Source: Thermoplasmatota archaeon (GTDB taxonomy: Archaea > Thermoplasmatota > E2 > DHVEG-1). From it: a stretch of 58,673 bases of DNA. The DNA lies in NCBI GenBank assembly GCA_016927555.1, contig JAFGML010000023.1, forward strand, positions 1 through 58,673, read 5' to 3'. Shown in pieces: positions 8,312 through 13,590 of the stretch. Each line of letters begins with the position of its first letter. Positions within the stretch are counted from its first letter, which is position 1. The position numbers and the translations under genes are program-made. The notes under the pieces were generated by a model. The model was not told the origin of the DNA. It searched no databases and was given only the letters and a program-made list of their open reading frames with translations.

Positions 8312-9258
8312 TAGTCAGTGCTGAAATGCTGCGCCTCGCACCAGATCTTCCTGTTCAGATGGTGCAGCGGTTTGTTGCACACCGGGCAGGTGATCTTTTC
8401 TAAAAAATGATCCAGCCACATGTCCCTGACTTGTCGCACGTTCTCATGTTCAATGCGTTGAAAGATAGTGTCAAGCTCCGGGGTTCGCACCAGCTGTCGG
8501 AGGTGAGAAAAATTCAGTTGATCTGAATCTCCAATGCGCATGTAGTCAGGTGCTCGTGCGACGTTTGGGTGTCGTGTTGTCCGTACTGTGTTCCGTAGTA
8601 GCAGCGCGGCGATAATCACACCACTGGCAAGCCCACCAAGGTGCGCAAAGTGAGCAACGTTATCCTGTCCTGAGAAGATCACAATCACTGTCTCTAGAAT
8701 AGCAAATAGGATGGTTGCGTAGATGACCTTGATACGCATGATTACCATAATGCCGAGTGGTACAGGCATGACGACTTCGTCTCGTGGGTACGCATACGCA
8801 AACGCTCCCAGGATCCCAAAGATAGCTCCCGAGGCACCAACAAGCACGATTGTATCCTCTAGATGGAGCACCGTATGGGTGAGCGCGCCACACACCCCGC
8901 TGATCAGGTAGATCGCCAAGAATTTCTTTCGGCCAACCCGTTGTTCAAACGCAACGCCCATGAAGAAAAACACAAACATGTTCCCCAGAATGTGGAGAAA
9001 ATCGCTGTGGACAAACATAGAGGTGAACAAGGTGTAGAGATTCGGAGACAGCTCAACTGTAAGAAAGACAGGTTGAAACCCTAACTCTTTGAGAATCTGC
9101 GCCTCTGAGAAGAGTGTTACTAGGAACACAAAGAAATTGGCGACAATGAGCCCGTACGTCATCATGATTTTTTTAAAGTACGCTACGAGAAGCGTGCCAA
9201 TCATGATGGCAATGGCAACCAGGGACACAGCGGATGGTTGAAGAAACACTATCTCCAT
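8308..9258 (-). CDS. Rhomboid-family intramembrane serine protease with C-terminal zinc-finger-like tail
   Basis: A 316-residue rhomboid. The catalytic serine is in GASGAIFG (Ser143) and the histidine in HFAHLGG (His206, with His203 nearby). The upstream TMFVHSDFLHILGNMFVFF segment is the conserved His-X-Asn region of the oxyanion site. An extra N-terminal helix precedes the six-helix core. After the core a soluble tail ends with CPVC...WCEAQH, a likely small metal-binding knuckle, unusual for a minimal rhomboid. The start overlaps the last 10 bases of the upstream phospholipase-like gene, indicating translational coupling. Cleavage of single-pass membrane proteins is the family role; the TM-anchored neighbour is a candidate substrate by inference only. 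Confidence 0.92.
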   Translation of the reverse strand: MEIVFLQPSAVSLVAIAIMIGTLLVAYFKKIMMTYGLIVANFFVFLVTLFSEAQILKELGFQPVFLTVELSPNLYTLFTSMFVHSDFLHILGNMFVFFFMGVAFEQRVGRKKFLAIYLISGVCGALTHTVLHLEDTIVLVGASGAIFGILGAFAYAYPRDEVVMPVPLGIMVIMRIKVIYATILFAILETVIVIFSGQDNVAHFAHLGGLASGVIIAALLLRNTVRTTRHPNVARAPDYMRIGDSDQLNFSHLRQLVRTPELDTIFQRIEHENVRQVRDMWLDHFLEKITCPVCNKPLHHLNRKIWCEAQHFSTDY

Positions 9259-11699
9259 TTTCGTTTTCTCCAGTCCCGTAGAATAAAGACAAACGTCAGA
9301 CAGAACACTATGGCAACAAGCACATAGTATTTATAGTCTGCCCACGAGACATCACTTGTTTTGGGATTCTGTGTCGCCAGAGTCCAATCATGGCAGAACA
9401 CTGAGGCGTAGTAGCTGGCGATGTCCTCGTTGTGGAGTAGCAGACCTGCCTCTCGGTTTTTCCGCACTGATTGCTCGTTCCAGTTAATACTAGAGATGAG
9501 CACGGTGTGGTTATCGATGATCATCCCCTTGTTGTGGACGGTGGAGAATGGTGACCAGTCGCTGGAGATGAAGACCACGGCAACCCCGTATGATTCGAGG
9601 AGTTGCTGTGTTTCATGCAGCTTTATAATGGTGTCGTCGTACTCAAGGTTGTAGTCCAGGAGCACTCGCACAGTGACGCCTTGCAGGCTTTTATTGATGA
9701 GGTGCTCTACCAGGGGGCTGAGGGTGTCCGCCCAGTCTTTGTAGATGTAGAGTTGCTGGATGTAGATGGTGCTTGTTGCGGCATCGATGGTATCGAGTAG
9801 TGCCTGTTCACTGGTGTCTGGGGAAAACACAGGTGTGATGATGCAGGAGTCTGTGATGGTTTTTGGTTGGAAACATGGAGTATATGTTCCAGTGGGTGTC
9901 TCCTCGTTCAGGGTGAACTCTGAGGGTATGGAGAGATTCATGGCCTCAATCGGGTAGCTGTCAGGGTGCTGTGGGTTCCAGTCATCATCGAACACGTGTT
10001 GGAAGAGGGATGCGACGTCTTGGTTGCGGACGACGATGCCCCATTCTCTGTTTCCGAAGCTGGGGTCCTTGGGTACCCCGGTTTTCGCCCAGTTGCAGCT
10101 CTCCACGATCACCGTGGTGTTGTCGATGATGAGGTACTTGGCGTGGTTGAACTGGTAGCGTGCGTGCACTTGGTGGTCTGCGTCGCTGACGATGAATCTG
10201 ACCCAAGCACCGTGTTCTGCAAGTGTTTGTAAAATGTATTGTTCTCGTTCGTCGAGGCCACCTATCGGTGAGCCTTCCATGAACATCCGAAGAGTGATGC
10301 CTCGGTGTAATGCGTTCAGGAGTTCGTTGTAGAGGAACGGGTTGGTGAATTCGTACAGGTTGATGTCGATTCTGCTGTGTGCGTTGCGGAGTTCCTGGGT
10401 GATGGTCTCGTAGCTATTATCTGGTGAGACGAACGCGGTGACTTCGCATCGAGCAGAGATGGCTTCGAGGGGGAATGCTGATTGTCCGATGCGGTAGATG
10501 CGGTGGTGCATCCAGTCTGAGGCACTATTGGTGTCCAGGGGTGTGCCGTTGATACAGTTGCGTTTCAGGATGACTCCTTGTCCTGAGGAGGGGATGGAGG
10601 GTCCTTCCCAGCAGGAGATGTAGTGGTCTGCCTCCCCGTAGATGACCAGGTCCACGAGGGTAGAGGAGGCGGTGTATAATCCCACGAGACCACCGGTGTT
10701 GCTGTAGGTGACGGTGCGGTCGGTGAGCAGTTGGGGGATGACAGGAAGGGAGTCGACTGCATATTCGTACTGCGGGAGCATGGTGGTCTCCCAGAGGTAC
10801 GCGGTTGCGTTTGCGGTGAGGACCCATGTGGTCTGTGGTGGGAGTAAGGTGTGGTCCGGGAAGATGATTTTTGCTTGGTCATCTGGTTCGCTCCATGGCT
10901 CATCAGTGAGGTACCACCCTGAGACATCCATAGGATCTGTTGTTGGGTTGTAGAGTGCGGCAAACTCGTTTTTTATCTTTGGGTAGGTATGGTAGTAGAG
11001 TTCTGTGATGAGGACCTGTGCTGCTGAGCATCCTGAAGCTTCCTCCTCGTCTAGGGTGCTGGACTCGTCAACGGTCTCATCGATATTTACTGATCCCGGA
11101 GTTGGAGTTACACCGTCGAAGAAATCAAAGGCGGAGTCATCGGTATCGGTTTCACCATAGCGGGCGAGGGTATGACCTTCGTCCACAGCAGTTACTGGTG
11201 AACCTGGGACTTCGTCATAGTCTTCTCCCCATTCGATTGCGTCGATGACTGTCCCCTCTGCATCGTACAAGATCAGATATTCTTGTTGGTTATTCAGTCC
11301 ATATCCACAGAGGGTGCTGTCGTCAACCAGCAGTCGTACCGCGGTGTCCGCAATAGTAAAACTTTCATCAATGGTGGTTTCTTTATCTGTGATTACTGCA
11401 TAGCCGCCTGGTGCAATGATTGTACTACCATCGCCATACTGTGTGTCCCCTTCTAATGTATCTGTTTCTTTTTCATCTGCTATCATCCAACCTACGACGT
11501 CAAGAGACTCTGAGGTGGGGTTGTACAGTTCAATCCATTCGTTGGTGTTTTCGTTTTCACTAGGATGGTACATCACTTCGTTGATGAGCAGTGTCGAAGA
11601 TGGTTCTGCTCTGAGTGGTTGGTTGCTTACCTGGAGCATTTGGCTTCCTAGAATACACAGGATGAGTACAGCGTCTATAACTTGTTTTTTTCTTTTCAT
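9249..11699 (-). CDS. Membrane-anchored phospholipase D-like protein with two lamin-tail domains
   Basis: An 816-residue exported protein. Residues 1-32 form a signal sequence. Two lamin-tail-like beta domains follow, at about 36-180 (LLINEVMYHP...NEWIELYNPT) and 228-380 (LITELYYHTYP...FAALYNPT). Then come two PLD half-domains with HKD motifs: H519-K521-D526 (HAKYLIID...SCNW) and H722-K724-D729 (HNKGMIID...SINW), so the active site is complete. A C-terminal membrane helix (about 786-808) ends in RDWRKRKWR, leaving the enzyme outside and anchored. The superfamily hydrolyses phosphodiesters, lipid or nucleic acid; several surface PLD proteins with lamin-tail domains are nuclease-like. The substrate here is unknown. 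The rhomboid gene overlaps its end. Confidence 0.88.
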   Translation of the reverse strand: MKRKKQVIDAVLILCILGSQMLQVSNQPLRAEPSSTLLINEVMYHPSENENTNEWIELYNPTSESLDVVGWMIADEKETDTLEGDTQYGDGSTIIAPGGYAVITDKETTIDESFTIADTAVRLLVDDSTLCGYGLNNQQEYLILYDAEGTVIDAIEWGEDYDEVPGSPVTAVDEGHTLARYGETDTDDSAFDFFDGVTPTPGSVNIDETVDESSTLDEEEASGCSAAQVLITELYYHTYPKIKNEFAALYNPTTDPMDVSGWYLTDEPWSEPDDQAKIIFPDHTLLPPQTTWVLTANATAYLWETTMLPQYEYAVDSLPVIPQLLTDRTVTYSNTGGLVGLYTASSTLVDLVIYGEADHYISCWEGPSIPSSGQGVILKRNCINGTPLDTNSASDWMHHRIYRIGQSAFPLEAISARCEVTAFVSPDNSYETITQELRNAHSRIDINLYEFTNPFLYNELLNALHRGITLRMFMEGSPIGGLDEREQYILQTLAEHGAWVRFIVSDADHQVHARYQFNHAKYLIIDNTTVIVESCNWAKTGVPKDPSFGNREWGIVVRNQDVASLFQHVFDDDWNPQHPDSYPIEAMNLSIPSEFTLNEETPTGTYTPCFQPKTITDSCIITPVFSPDTSEQALLDTIDAATSTIYIQQLYIYKDWADTLSPLVEHLINKSLQGVTVRVLLDYNLEYDDTIIKLHETQQLLESYGVAVVFISSDWSPFSTVHNKGMIIDNHTVLISSINWNEQSVRKNREAGLLLHNEDIASYYASVFCHDWTLATQNPKTSDVSWADYKYYVLVAIVFCLTFVFILRDWRKRKWR

Positions 11700-11733
11700 A
11701 ATATCTTTTCTCCCAGACTTTTTTTGTATGCAG

Positions 11734-11804
11734 AGGGCGGGCTGGGATTTGAACCCAGGTAGGCGGATCTGCAGTCCGCCACATAGCCACTTTGTTACCC
11801 GCCC
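11734..11804 (-). tRNA. tRNA-Cys (GCA)
   Basis: The minus strand folds as a complete 71-nt tRNA. The acceptor stem is GGGCGGG/CCCGCCC, the anticodon loop CTGCAGA has anticodon GCA (plus-strand 11770-11772), the T arm contains GGTTCAAATCC, and the discriminator base is U, as expected for tRNA-Cys. There is no intron and CCA is not encoded. The first 20 nt of the gene recur downstream at 12475-12492 and 13228-13247 (see repeats). Confidence 0.96.
11785..11804 (-). repeat. tRNA-Cys 5'-end repeat, copy 1 (within the intact tRNA)
   Basis: Plus-strand agccactttgttacccgccc. This stretch of the functional tRNA gene recurs twice in the next 1.4 kb, each time without the rest of the tRNA. It marks one end of a ~0.69-kb segment holding the first toxin-antitoxin module. 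Confidence 0.85.
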
Positions 11805-11812
11805 AAGGTCGC

Positions 11813-11844
11813 CTGTTATGTGGCCAAAAACAGTTATGTGGCCA
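11813..11844. repeat. Short tandem repeat upstream of tRNA-Cys
   Basis: The motif GTTATGTGGCCAA occurs twice 17 bp apart (from 11814 and from 11832). It sits between the tRNA 5' end and the conserved TTTTAATTCTTTTGGT block (11874-11889), which lies only ~30 bp from the tRNA fragment in copy 2 but ~70 bp here. Confidence 0.7.
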
Positions 11845-11979
11845 ATGTAGTATCCCGAATATTAAGTGGGCTGTTTTAATTCTTTTGGTCATTCAATATA
11901 TCTAGTTTGATACCTATGATTGCAAAGATATAAATATTATAAATGATATAAGTAATATAGTAGATATAGAGGTAATGTT

Positions 11980-12165
11980 ATGACAAATACTACAATTGCA
12001 GTTACGCAAGAAACTAAAAAGGCATTACAACAATTAGGAACCAAAGGAGAAACATACGACTCAATCATTAAAAAATTACTTCAACAATTCGCCTGGAAAA
12101 AACTGGATGAGAAATGGAATAAAATCCTTTCTGAAGACGAATTTATTCCCCTTAACGAGCTGTGA
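11980..12165 (+). CDS. Antitoxin of RelE/ParE-type toxin-antitoxin pair
   Basis: A 61-residue protein (MTNTTIAVTQETKKALQQLG...) of the archaeal antitoxin type: an N-terminal strand plus helix likely to bind DNA as a ribbon-helix-helix-like dimer (TTIAVTQETKKALQQLGTKGETYDSIIKKLL), then a charged C-terminal segment (AWKKLDEKWNKILSEDEF) that would wrap the toxin. A GAGGTAAT ribosome site precedes the ATG and AT-rich TATA sequence (TATAAATATTATAAA) lies upstream. It overlaps the toxin gene by four bases (GTGA), the usual arrangement for translational coupling. The family assignment rests on size, partner and motif rather than a database match. Confidence 0.8.
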   Translation: MTNTTIAVTQETKKALQQLGTKGETYDSIIKKLLQQFAWKKLDEKWNKILSEDEFIPLNEL

Positions 12166-12437
12166 GTGGGATGCCATTTACTGTTATAGTCTCAAAAACA
12201 TTTCAAAAGGATTTTCAGCATTTACCAAATGAACTACAAAAACTGATACGAAGTGGATTAAAAGAATTGCAGAACGATCCATATTCCGCTCGTCCTCATT
12301 GCGATATAAAGGTGTTAAAAAACACAAAACCAAAGAAACATCGTCTACGAGTTGGCGAGTATCGTATCATATACACGATAGAAAAAAATGAAGTAAGAGT
12401 CATCTATCTGATGAAACGAGAAATCGGATATGGATGA
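12162..12437 (+). CDS. RelE/ParE superfamily toxin
   Basis: A 91-residue protein with the RelE fold pattern: VIVSKTFQKDFQHLPNELQKLIRSGLKELQNDPY (helical hairpin), then the beta-sheet with H-RLRVGEYRIIYTIEKNEVRVIYLMKR. The G-E-YRIIY motif and the basic C-terminal residues are typical of RelE-type mRNA interferases, which cut mRNA in the ribosomal A site. The nominal start is GTG 12162 overlapping the antitoxin stop; ATG 12171 is also possible. Both genes lie between two copies of the tRNA-Cys 5' end, suggesting they arrived as a unit. Confidence 0.9.
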   Translation: MSGMPFTVIVSKTFQKDFQHLPNELQKLIRSGLKELQNDPYSARPHCDIKVLKNTKPKKHRLRVGEYRIIYTIEKNEVRVIYLMKREIGYG

Positions 12438-12474
12438 TTGGAATAAATCGATAAATAAAAAGAGAATATTATTA

Positions 12475-12492
12475 CCACTTTGTTACCCGCCC
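12475..12492 (-). repeat. tRNA-Cys 5'-end repeat, copy 2
   Basis: Plus-strand ccactttgttacccgccc, identical to the first 18 nt of tRNA-Cys and followed by AA in both copies. Beyond it, ACCCGATTAA and TTTAAATTCTTTTGGT (12522-12537) match the flank of the intact tRNA. Read on the minus strand, GAATTTAAATGG is a good TATA box ~35 bp before this tRNA fragment, so promoter plus 5' end of a tRNA gene are preserved without the body. Confidence 0.85.
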
Positions 12493-12548
12493 AAAGAGTA
12501 ACCCGATTAATTCATGTTCCATTTAAATTCTTTTGGTTGAAAACGAGT

Positions 12549-12923
12549 TTAAAACAGTGATATGTTCGGGATGGCTTGGAAATGTTTTTTATTGAAGGTA
12601 AACAACTGTGCTTTTCTATTGATAACGATAGCAGTAATCATAGCATCGATACGGGATACCATACATCCTTTCTGTTCTGCATCAAGTTCAATTTTTGCTG
12701 AAAGAAGAGCATCTTCTTTAGAAAACTCTATGGTCTCTAATTTTTCAATGGAAGGTGTTTTCTTTTTTCCATATTTGTACAGTCCATAGAGGATTTCATG
12801 AAGCGACAACGAGGTGATCGCAATTTCTTCTCCGGAGGATTCTATTTTTTCTAACGCATCGGTTCCTTTTTTAGAGCCTTTGTTAAAAATTTCTATGAGG
12901 ACATCGGTATCTAAAATGATCAT
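12549..12923 (-). CDS. vapC: VapC PIN-domain ribonuclease toxin
   Basis: A 124-residue PIN-domain protein. The acidic residues expected to bind Mg are visible: D5 in MIILDTDVLIE, E43 in SLSLHEILYGL, and the aspartates in VSRIDAMITAIV, with a further LFTFNKKHF near the end. VapC enzymes cleave tRNA or rRNA and are inhibited by the cognate VapB. It starts three bases after the vapB stop, so the pair is one transcript. It sits between tRNA-Cys repeat copies 2 and 3. Confidence 0.92.
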   Translation of the reverse strand: MIILDTDVLIEIFNKGSKKGTDALEKIESSGEEIAITSLSLHEILYGLYKYGKKKTPSIEKLETIEFSKEDALLSAKIELDAEQKGCMVSRIDAMITAIVINRKAQLFTFNKKHFQAIPNISLF

Positions 12924-12926
12924 GGT

Positions 12927-13139
12927 TTACACGTACCTTTGTTCTTTGCGTTTCTTTTCGATTTCTCTTAGCATCTGGTCTTTCTTTTCAAATTTTGTAC
13001 ATCCGTGAAGTTTTCGTAACGTTTCGATATTGTTTTTACTGAGTCGTTCAAAAAGATCGCTGAAGCTTTCGTTTTCCCGTTTCATAGCCAGTAGTTTTTC
13101 ATAGACGGATACTTTCACGGTTAACGTTTTAAAACTCAT
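12927..13139 (-). CDS. vapB: VapB-type antitoxin
   Basis: A 70-residue antitoxin. The N-terminal FKTLTVKVSVYEKLLAMKRENESFSDLFERL is a ribbon-helix-helix-like DNA-binding segment of the archaeal VapB group that pairs with PIN toxins. The C-terminal part is very basic/charged (KFEKKDQMLREIEKKRKEQRYV), consistent with a toxin-binding tail. The ATG at 13139 lies about 25 bp from a TATA-like ATTTATATATG, and the same stretch holds overlapping palindromes (13142-13163), so autorepression by VapB is likely. Confidence 0.88.
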   Translation of the reverse strand: MSFKTLTVKVSVYEKLLAMKRENESFSDLFERLSKNNIETLRKLHGCTKFEKKDQMLREIEKKRKEQRYV

Positions 13140-13141
13140 AA

Positions 13142-13163
13142 TTAAACATATGTTTAAACATAT
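13142..13163. promoter_or_regulatory. Overlapping palindromic operator at the vapB promoter
   Basis: Two perfect 16-bp palindromes overlap: TTAAACATATGTTTAA (13142-13157) and ATATGTTTAAACATAT (13148-13163). They abut the vapB start codon and overlap its TATA box. Tandem half-sites are what a ribbon-helix-helix antitoxin would bind cooperatively. The palindromes are directly seen; the regulator is inferred. Confidence 0.6.
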
Positions 13164-13227
13164 ATAAATATCTTTCGTTTATATGGAAGAAACCATGCTA
13201 GCTTAGCTAATATCTAATGTGTAAAAA

Positions 13228-13247
13228 AGCCACTTTGTTACCCGCCC
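13228..13247 (-). repeat. tRNA-Cys 5'-end repeat, copy 3
   Basis: Plus-strand agccactttgttacccgccc, 20 of 20 identical to the 5' end of tRNA-Cys. It lies ~755 bp from copy 2, bounding the vapBC segment. The sequence beyond it differs from copies 1 and 2 and instead belongs to the degenerate repeat at 13250-13308. Confidence 0.85.
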
Positions 13248-13249
13248 TT

Positions 13250-13308
13250 ACTCCTGTTCAGGTACGTCGTGAATTCAGTAGTTGGGTTTAGTGGTTTTGG
13301 TTCTTGGA
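13250..13308. repeat. Degenerate direct repeat, copy A
   Basis: Shares GTGAATTCAGTAGTTGGGTT and flanking bases with copy B at 13530-13590 (CATGAATTCAGTGGTTGGTT). Both also contain a TCCT core (AGGAG on the minus strand) at one end and a GGTTT(T/C)GGT block at the other. Copy B is the leader of the small membrane-protein gene; copy A is an orphan leader ending in the tRNA-Cys fragment. Confidence 0.6.
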
Positions 13309-13348: not shown

Positions 13349-13522
13349 CTAGATTCTATCTATCAGTATTCGAATGATTACAGCGTAAGCAAATAGAATT
13401 ATTGCGAAAAAAATTGAAAGTATATAATTAGTATTTATAAAAAATGAAAACAGGAAAAGAAGTATCAATGCTAGGGGGAGAACGAAGATGATTTTAATGA
13501 CTCCTTTACTCCATTTATCCAT
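13349..13522 (-). CDS. 57-residue two-helix membrane protein, unknown function
   Basis: A short gene below usual length cutoffs. It reads MDKWSKGVIKIIFVLPLALI at the N-terminus and ends RILIDRI. Two hydrophobic segments (about residues 8-29 and 33-52) are separated by a short FINTNY turn. An AGGAG ribosome-binding site lies six bases before the ATG, supporting real translation. The start resembles that of the membrane protein at 280-540 (MDKKTWSK). No toxin family can be assigned, although size and place next to two toxin-antitoxin modules fit a small membrane-active peptide. Function unknown. Confidence 0.6.
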   Translation of the reverse strand: MDKWSKGVIKIIFVLPLALILLFLFSFFINTNYILSIFFAIILFAYAVIIRILIDRI

Positions 13523-13529
13523 AGGCGTC

Positions 13530-13590
13530 TCCTAACCTTTTCGAGTATGTCATGAATTCAGTGGTTGGTTGTAATGGTTTCGGTCTGTCG
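13530..13590. repeat. Degenerate direct repeat, copy B
   Basis: Second copy of the 13250-13308 repeat, upstream of the 57-residue membrane protein on the minus strand and including its ribosome-binding site region. The similarity is about two thirds by eye, with an identical TGAATTCAGT core followed by a conserved GTTGG. Confidence 0.6.

Follow-up and report, generated by a model that had tools for sequence, protein, structure and literature searches.

Serial integration at the 5′ end of a tRNA-Cys gene is well supported at a locus of a Thermoplasmatota archaeon, and the locus as a whole is best explained as a stack of integration scars: it is probable that integrase-mediated insertions followed one another at the tRNA 5′ end and that they were then lost down to an integrase tail and a toxin-antitoxin pair. 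The DNA examined is a stretch of 58,673 nt (hereafter the window) from an assembly of 1.47 Mb that is 85% complete. The relatives compared with it are represented by assemblies differing in completeness, such that the lack of a module or an integrase in any one of them is weak evidence. The initial annotation had described a RelE-type and a VapBC pair bounded by exact repeats of the tRNA-Cys 5′ end, which sequence search and Pfam comparisons confirm. It had also proposed serial or att-like recombination at that end, and this gains support from an integrase abutting the tRNA gene in relatives, from the junctions of empty and occupied sites, and from integrase tails at every copy.

Copies of the tRNA-Cys 5′ end and the adjoining integrase

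The tRNA-Cys(GCA) gene at 11733-11804 (minus strand) is the sole tRNA gene that ARAGORN detects in the window, and its ortholog is present in most genomes of the host's family. Within it lies the integration core, GGGCGGGTAACAAAGTGG (11787-11804, minus strand), with exact repeats at 12475 and 13230. Copy 2 (12475-12492) matches the first 18 nt of the tRNA exactly and copy 3 (13228-13247) the first 20; both are on the same strand as tRNA-Cys, the spacing between successive 5′ ends being 688 and 755 bp, and they would represent an old and a still older 5′ end of the gene, respectively. Base composition predicts 4e-5 exact copies of the core per 1.47 Mb assembly, the host assembly contains three sites in total even when one mismatch is allowed, and a reversed control pattern gives zero matches in the same search of that assembly. 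The low expectation and the null control rule out a chance repeat as the source of the copies.

The core spans tRNA positions 1-18 and reaches to about position 27. Together with the next tRNA bases it forms, in the window, the imperfect palindrome GGGCGGGTAAC-AAAGTG-GCTATGTGGC, which in many to most relatives reads GGGCGGGTAAC-AAAGTG-GTTATGTGGC, i.e. roughly 27 bp of the acceptor/D-arm end of tRNA-Cys. The palindrome's right half is the reverse complement of GCCACATAAC. In most genomes this decamer or a close variant recurs at a spacing of ~20 bp in the interval separating the integrase tail from the core, and the window has two such copies, both reading GGCCACATAAC on the minus strand (11815-11825 and, 18 bp from it, 11833-11843). 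Being near-reverse complements of the right half of the core, these are candidate integrase-binding repeats, and the core with its nearby repeats has the layout that would be expected for a tyrosine-recombinase core with accessory binding sites.

Directly downstream of tRNA-Cys, at 9249-11699 of the window, is a gene whose 816-aa product has lamin-tail as well as phospholipase D-like domains; members of the family share this gene neighbourhood, which is the side of the hotspot that stays stable.

Each of the three cores in the window is accompanied by an integrase tail; the tails, all on the minus strand, are in varying states of decay and are recognized by comparison with the integrase C-terminus. 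The remnant adjoining the tRNA gene (11847-11888, PKELKQPT*YSGYY) has a broken frame and contains CCAAAAGAATTAAAA, a likely tRNA promoter. That of copy 2 (12495-12536) reads PKEFKWNMN*SGYS, and that of copy 3 (13259-13300), PKPLNPTTEFTTYL, is still in an open frame. A fourth remnant at 13536-13584 (minus strand, translation PKPLQPTTEFMTYSKR), assigned to repeat family D2 and 80% identical to the tail of copy 3, no longer has a recognisable core. It sits beyond a 57-aa ORF for a predicted membrane protein (13349-13522, minus strand), taken from the ORF list, which has no significant match in Pfam and is tentatively considered the cargo of a third, more decayed unit; this fourth tail is thus just outside the interval 11734-13247 that contains the two modules. 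The initial annotation had noted a retained tRNA promoter block at copy 2: the block is indeed there and probably was a promoter, but its sequence derives from the 3′ end of an integrase gene, now eroded, and copy 3 and the tRNA gene itself are equally tailed.

The identity of the tails follows from the relatives. The counterpart of TTTAAATTCTTTTGGT in G008 (contig C143) is the 3′ end of an intact tyrosine integrase gene of 327 codons, which ends beside a displaced copy of the tRNA-Cys 5′ end, and G011 encodes a full-length homolog, 57% identical to it, directly upstream of tRNA-Cys. In both, the integrase ORF is complete beside the core, so the gene has not been split by integration; the stop codon is followed by the core after about 38-44 bp. 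Further copies in G002, G009 and G001 are at the same place and are frameshifted or truncated. The last 14 integrase codons (PK-LK----EF-GY) are found just upstream of tRNA-Cys in 20 genomes from ten genera, at 16 of these 20 sites without the remainder of the gene, and the tail also accompanies about a dozen displaced cores. The window's own assembly (85% complete) yielded no such integrase gene, and to this extent the earlier remark that the locus has no integrase is right for the host and does not extend to G008 and G011.

Relatives also provide empty and occupied states of the site. G004, G002 and G001 have the tail, the core and the tRNA gene with no insert, whereas in G008 a 9.2-kb segment lies between the tRNA gene and a core preceded by the intact integrase; translations of its genes read as aminotransferase-like, aldehyde oxidoreductase-like, homoserine dehydrogenase-like and others. 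The upstream side of the empty sites matches the far core flank of G008 at 81-87 of 90 positions and the downstream side matches its tRNA side at 76-79 of 80; crossed comparisons give no more than chance agreement (13-14/45 and 18-20/62). Because each flank matches on its own side and the crossed ones do not, the insertion junction lies at the core. The arrangement is that of a tyrosine-recombinase element: in the relatives an integrase of the phage integrase family adjoins the att site (the window keeps tails alone), and the target fragment is duplicated at the far end of the insert, with the intact gene at the near end. The search for an empty site suggested by the initial annotation thus succeeded for the G008 insert at the same core and gave none for the two units of the window among the eight genus members examined, none of which is usable for this purpose because each already has at least one integrase tail at the place.

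The retained integrase end and the probable tRNA promoter

In the mechanism that we propose, elements with an Xer-like tyrosine integrase would recombine, presumably by means of this enzyme, at the ~27-bp imperfect palindrome in tRNA-Cys. The front of the gene would thereby be swapped: the tRNA body would be joined to a copy of the tRNA 5′ end brought in by the element, with the 3′ end of its integrase gene in front, and the old 5′ end would be displaced outward along with the old upstream sequence. The next element would repeat this front swap. The integrase 3′ end would take over as the tRNA promoter, which would account for its being kept.

The conservation of this end across the 16 integrase-less tRNA-proximal sites is abrupt in its onset: homology begins at CCAAAAnnATTAAAA, which starts with CCAAAA. 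On average, the information content amounts to 0.39 in the 15 positions preceding the block, 1.75 in the 15-bp block and 0.91 in the following 27 positions, as against 0.48 (maximum 0.68) and 0.22 (maximum 0.32) for random-segment controls treated identically. Two of the 16 sites, those of the window and of G007, keep the block despite a broken reading frame. The CCAAAAnnATTAAAA block resembles an archaeal BRE/TATA element. As insertion at the 5′ end severs a tRNA gene from its own promoter, the element must supply one, and the conservation is most simply read as a promoter function of the integrase 3′ end (CCAAAAnnATTAAAA) for tRNA-Cys. The tail would then survive the loss of the remaining integrase because of this service, and the displaced tails would be fossils of earlier promoters. 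Comparable consequences have been described for pTN3-type elements, in which integration separates the tRNA from its original promoter (PMC5495485) and the recombinant tRNA is described as being expressed from the integrase promoter (PMC8371274).

Cargo and the origin of the short units

The unit next to tRNA-Cys encodes, on the plus strand, a 61-aa RelBE/ParDE-type antitoxin (11980-12165), whose match to DUF7557 in Pfam is sub-threshold so that it has no confident family, and a RelE/ParE-family toxin (12162-12437; PF05016, ParE_toxin, E=9e-8). The next one encodes, on the minus strand, a PIN-domain VapC toxin (12549-12923; PF01850, E=2e-12) and a VapB antitoxin (12927-13139; PF02697, VAPB_antitox, E=7e-13). 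The genes of each pair are in operon layout, overlapping or 3 bp apart, and with PF05016, PF01850 and PF02697 all above cut-off both pairs have the make-up of type II toxin-antitoxin systems. The whole assembly has a single match to PF05016 and a single one to PF01850, and both lie within 1.4 kb between core copies; the chance of two randomly placed toxins both falling there is ~1e-6, a figure to be read with the choice of the locus because of these toxins in mind.

Toxin-antitoxin genes beside tRNA-Cys 5′ copies, for which the initial annotation had proposed a wider search, were found at core copies in G007 (PIN_2), G018 (HicBA) and G059 (ParE). G060, from another genus, has homologs of the window RelBE pair (74% identity for the antitoxin, 57% for the toxin) beside its tRNA-Cys, in opposite orientation, and homologs of the window RelE and VapC are located close to further element ends in G049 and, less clearly, in G006. 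In genomes other than that of the window, 3-4 out of 111 such toxins have a site within 1.5 kb, against 0.3 expected; the number of sites (about 75) is approximate, and they were partly found via toxins. The idea that toxin-antitoxin pairs are the sole cargo fails in G005, G006, G008 and G009: the same spot in relatives is occupied by genes for a PH-domain protein, C25 and C1 peptidases, a nitroreductase, ABC transporter components and a radical-SAM protein. The toxin-antitoxin content of the units is accordingly a tendency and not a rule. By eye, a ParE-type pair beside the RelBE pair upstream of tRNA-Cys in G060 (L076:8155-8430) resembles the ParE unit of G059 (L079).

On the reading of serial insertion followed by loss, what remains is what cannot be lost, namely the tail and an addictive toxin-antitoxin pair: the two short units would be remnants in which the tRNA-sustaining tail and a pair costly to lose survived deletion. 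Against this stand the lack of an integrase in the host assembly, the lack of a relative with exactly the window locus minus both modules, and the two left junctions of the window, which are without the conserved block seen after many cores. A different, possible but rather improbable account is that the short units are non-autonomous mini-cassettes of cargo, tail and core, mobilised in trans by an integrase that a resident element encodes. It draws on integrase-less units with one or two genes between cores, both of their ends preserved, in G006 (803 bp), G051 (711 bp), G017 (1371 bp) and G009 (1435 and 2284 bp), on the location of the 9.2-kb segment of G008 beside an intact integrase, on the core copies that relatives carry in short arrays far from tRNA-Cys, on the recurrence of cargo families (C25 peptidase, nitroreductase), and on the opposite orientations of the homologous RelBE pairs. 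However, erosion of complete elements to useful or addictive genes yields the same picture, and the sharp onset of homology at the presumed promoter is a prediction of such selective erosion; moreover, neither a circular form nor an identical cassette at two sites was seen, and the window units are without the conserved left-end block. About as improbable is a Thermoplasmatota cassette system unrelated to integrons, in which a resident Xer-like integrase by tRNA-Cys would capture and stack short integrase-less, often toxin-antitoxin units and the integrase end would be both recombination arm and tRNA promoter.

Readings that dispense with integration fare worse. Unequal exchange can yield tandem direct repeats, and the 5′ fragments might thus have come from segmental duplication or homologous recombination, with the toxin-antitoxin pairs arriving independently; yet in many species the copies always end at the same core, flanked to one side by a tail or a tRNA-type leader and to the other by unrelated cargo, and the comparison of G004 with G008 gives a clean insertion at the core, which makes this origin extremely unlikely. 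A reading of the fragments not as scars but as functional small-RNA genes or promoters of tRNA-Cys origin is very unlikely: many copies elsewhere do combine a promoter-like upstream region with an 80-nt downstream block and a T-run, but in the downstream block no fold is conserved, the window lacks this block, and the upstream region is integrase coding sequence wherever the integrase is intact.

The conserved block of ~80 nt that follows many cores contains TCGTCGAAAAT repeats and is a candidate for the recombination site's other arm. RNAalifold predicted no consensus pairing across the core and downstream block of 20 copies, and for lack of a conserved fold we set aside a small-RNA or attC-like reading of the block; it is absent after the window copies, i.e. 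at both left junctions. What precedes the block-bearing copies in G009, G017, G059 and related genomes resembles a tRNA promoter more than an integrase tail. The block (GTTACCTTCCCCTTTTCGCTGAGAATATCGTCGAAAATAATCGTCGAAAATC, then a T-run) was seen after core-like sequences at L070:12032-12102, L071:9886-9950, L079:1647-1716, L170:9012-9080 and about 30 more places, often distant from tRNA-Cys and beside single genes.

Relation to known integrative systems

The use of a tRNA 5′ end, which the initial annotation had called unusual, is rare and has precedents in the pTN3-type elements (PMC8371274, PMC5495485) and in one thaumarchaeal element (PMC6563490). The attB of the pTN3-type elements of Thermococcales is the 5′ half of a tRNA gene (PMC8371274; PMC5495485). 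As would be the case for the elements described here, their integration restores the tRNA and yet cuts off its original promoter, such that the element must supply expression. The pTN3 integrase is, however, suicidal, its gene being split with the att site inside it, whereas in G011 and G008 the att core comes after the stop codon of an unsplit, Xer-like gene; further differences from pTN3 are that most genomes retain nothing of the gene but its tail and that the insertions form a stack. CalSub-E1 of Thaumarchaeota recombined with the 5′-distal part of tRNA-Ser, the sole such case in 39 tRNA integrations (PMC6563490). It shares the use of the tRNA 5′ end and differs in being a single element, in another host phylum and at another tRNA.

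In tandem accretion, known from ICE/IME families, integrase-less units (CIMEs) bounded by att copies reside beside an integrated element at one target and are mobilised by a related element. The units of the window have this structure, an integrase-less unit between att sites, which is a likeness of structure alone; here, in contrast, the host is archaeal, the target is the tRNA 5′ end, the units are of 0.7 kb and a tail of the integrase gene is retained. The terms tandem accretion and cis-mobilisable elements occur in passages of PMC5704250 and PMC7563491. The event type is thus known, whereas its form here is unusual and readable, being stacked and leaving the integrase gene unsplit.

Integrons likewise combine a tyrosine recombinase with a nearby site, direct repeats by the core, units of one or two genes and toxin-antitoxin cargo. 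The integrase of the relatives nevertheless scores far under the cut-off of the integron-integrase model TIGR02249 (71-102 bits vs 265), aligning to it in two separate stretches between which the IntI-specific segment is missing, the anchor is a tRNA gene, and RNAalifold, as distinct from attC-specific models, gives no attC-like conserved fold for the core plus downstream block. The low score and the missing segment rule out membership among the integrons, which include archaeal ones (PMC9668308). The intact genes of the relatives are instead of the phage integrase family (PF00589, E=1e-29/1e-31); their closest solved structures are XerA 5hxy and 4a8e, and with 134-146 bits they remain under the cut-off of 220 of the archaeal XerA equivalog model.

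The system adds a second archaeal integrase type that uses a tRNA 5′ end, and its traces extend over ten genera; it also preserves, in readable form, the succession of insertions that one essential target has received. It further offers a case for the promoter problem, in that the integrase 3′ end appears now to be the host's tRNA-Cys promoter and the one part that would not be losable. As a natural experiment, it lets one ask why toxin-antitoxin pairs persist longer than the elements with which they arrived.

As for the carrier, a viral collection searched with the core and with the integrase gave no match to either, and a viral carrier was rejected on these grounds. Upstream of the G011 integrase are a 555-aa ORF (L037:6464-8131) and a 99-aa ORF, both without a family match, which would fit an undescribed plasmid or provirus; the 555-aa ORF, which has no match in Pfam or PHROG, is possibly the replication protein of an undescribed Thermoplasmata plasmid or virus. 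A small gene overlaps the integrase start in G011 (L037:6158-6442) and in G002 (L218:1389-1781), the two products being similar to each other by eye (MELIIxxE...); it matches no Pfam family and is a possible accessory or excision factor, and a histone-like reading of it received no support from Pfam. The integrases of G040 (L072:6700-7824) and G010 (L179:8494-9477) end about 50 residues earlier than the others, without the C-terminal tail, and in G040 the tail sequence adjoins the tRNA gene about 1.1 kb from the integrase, with other sequence between them.
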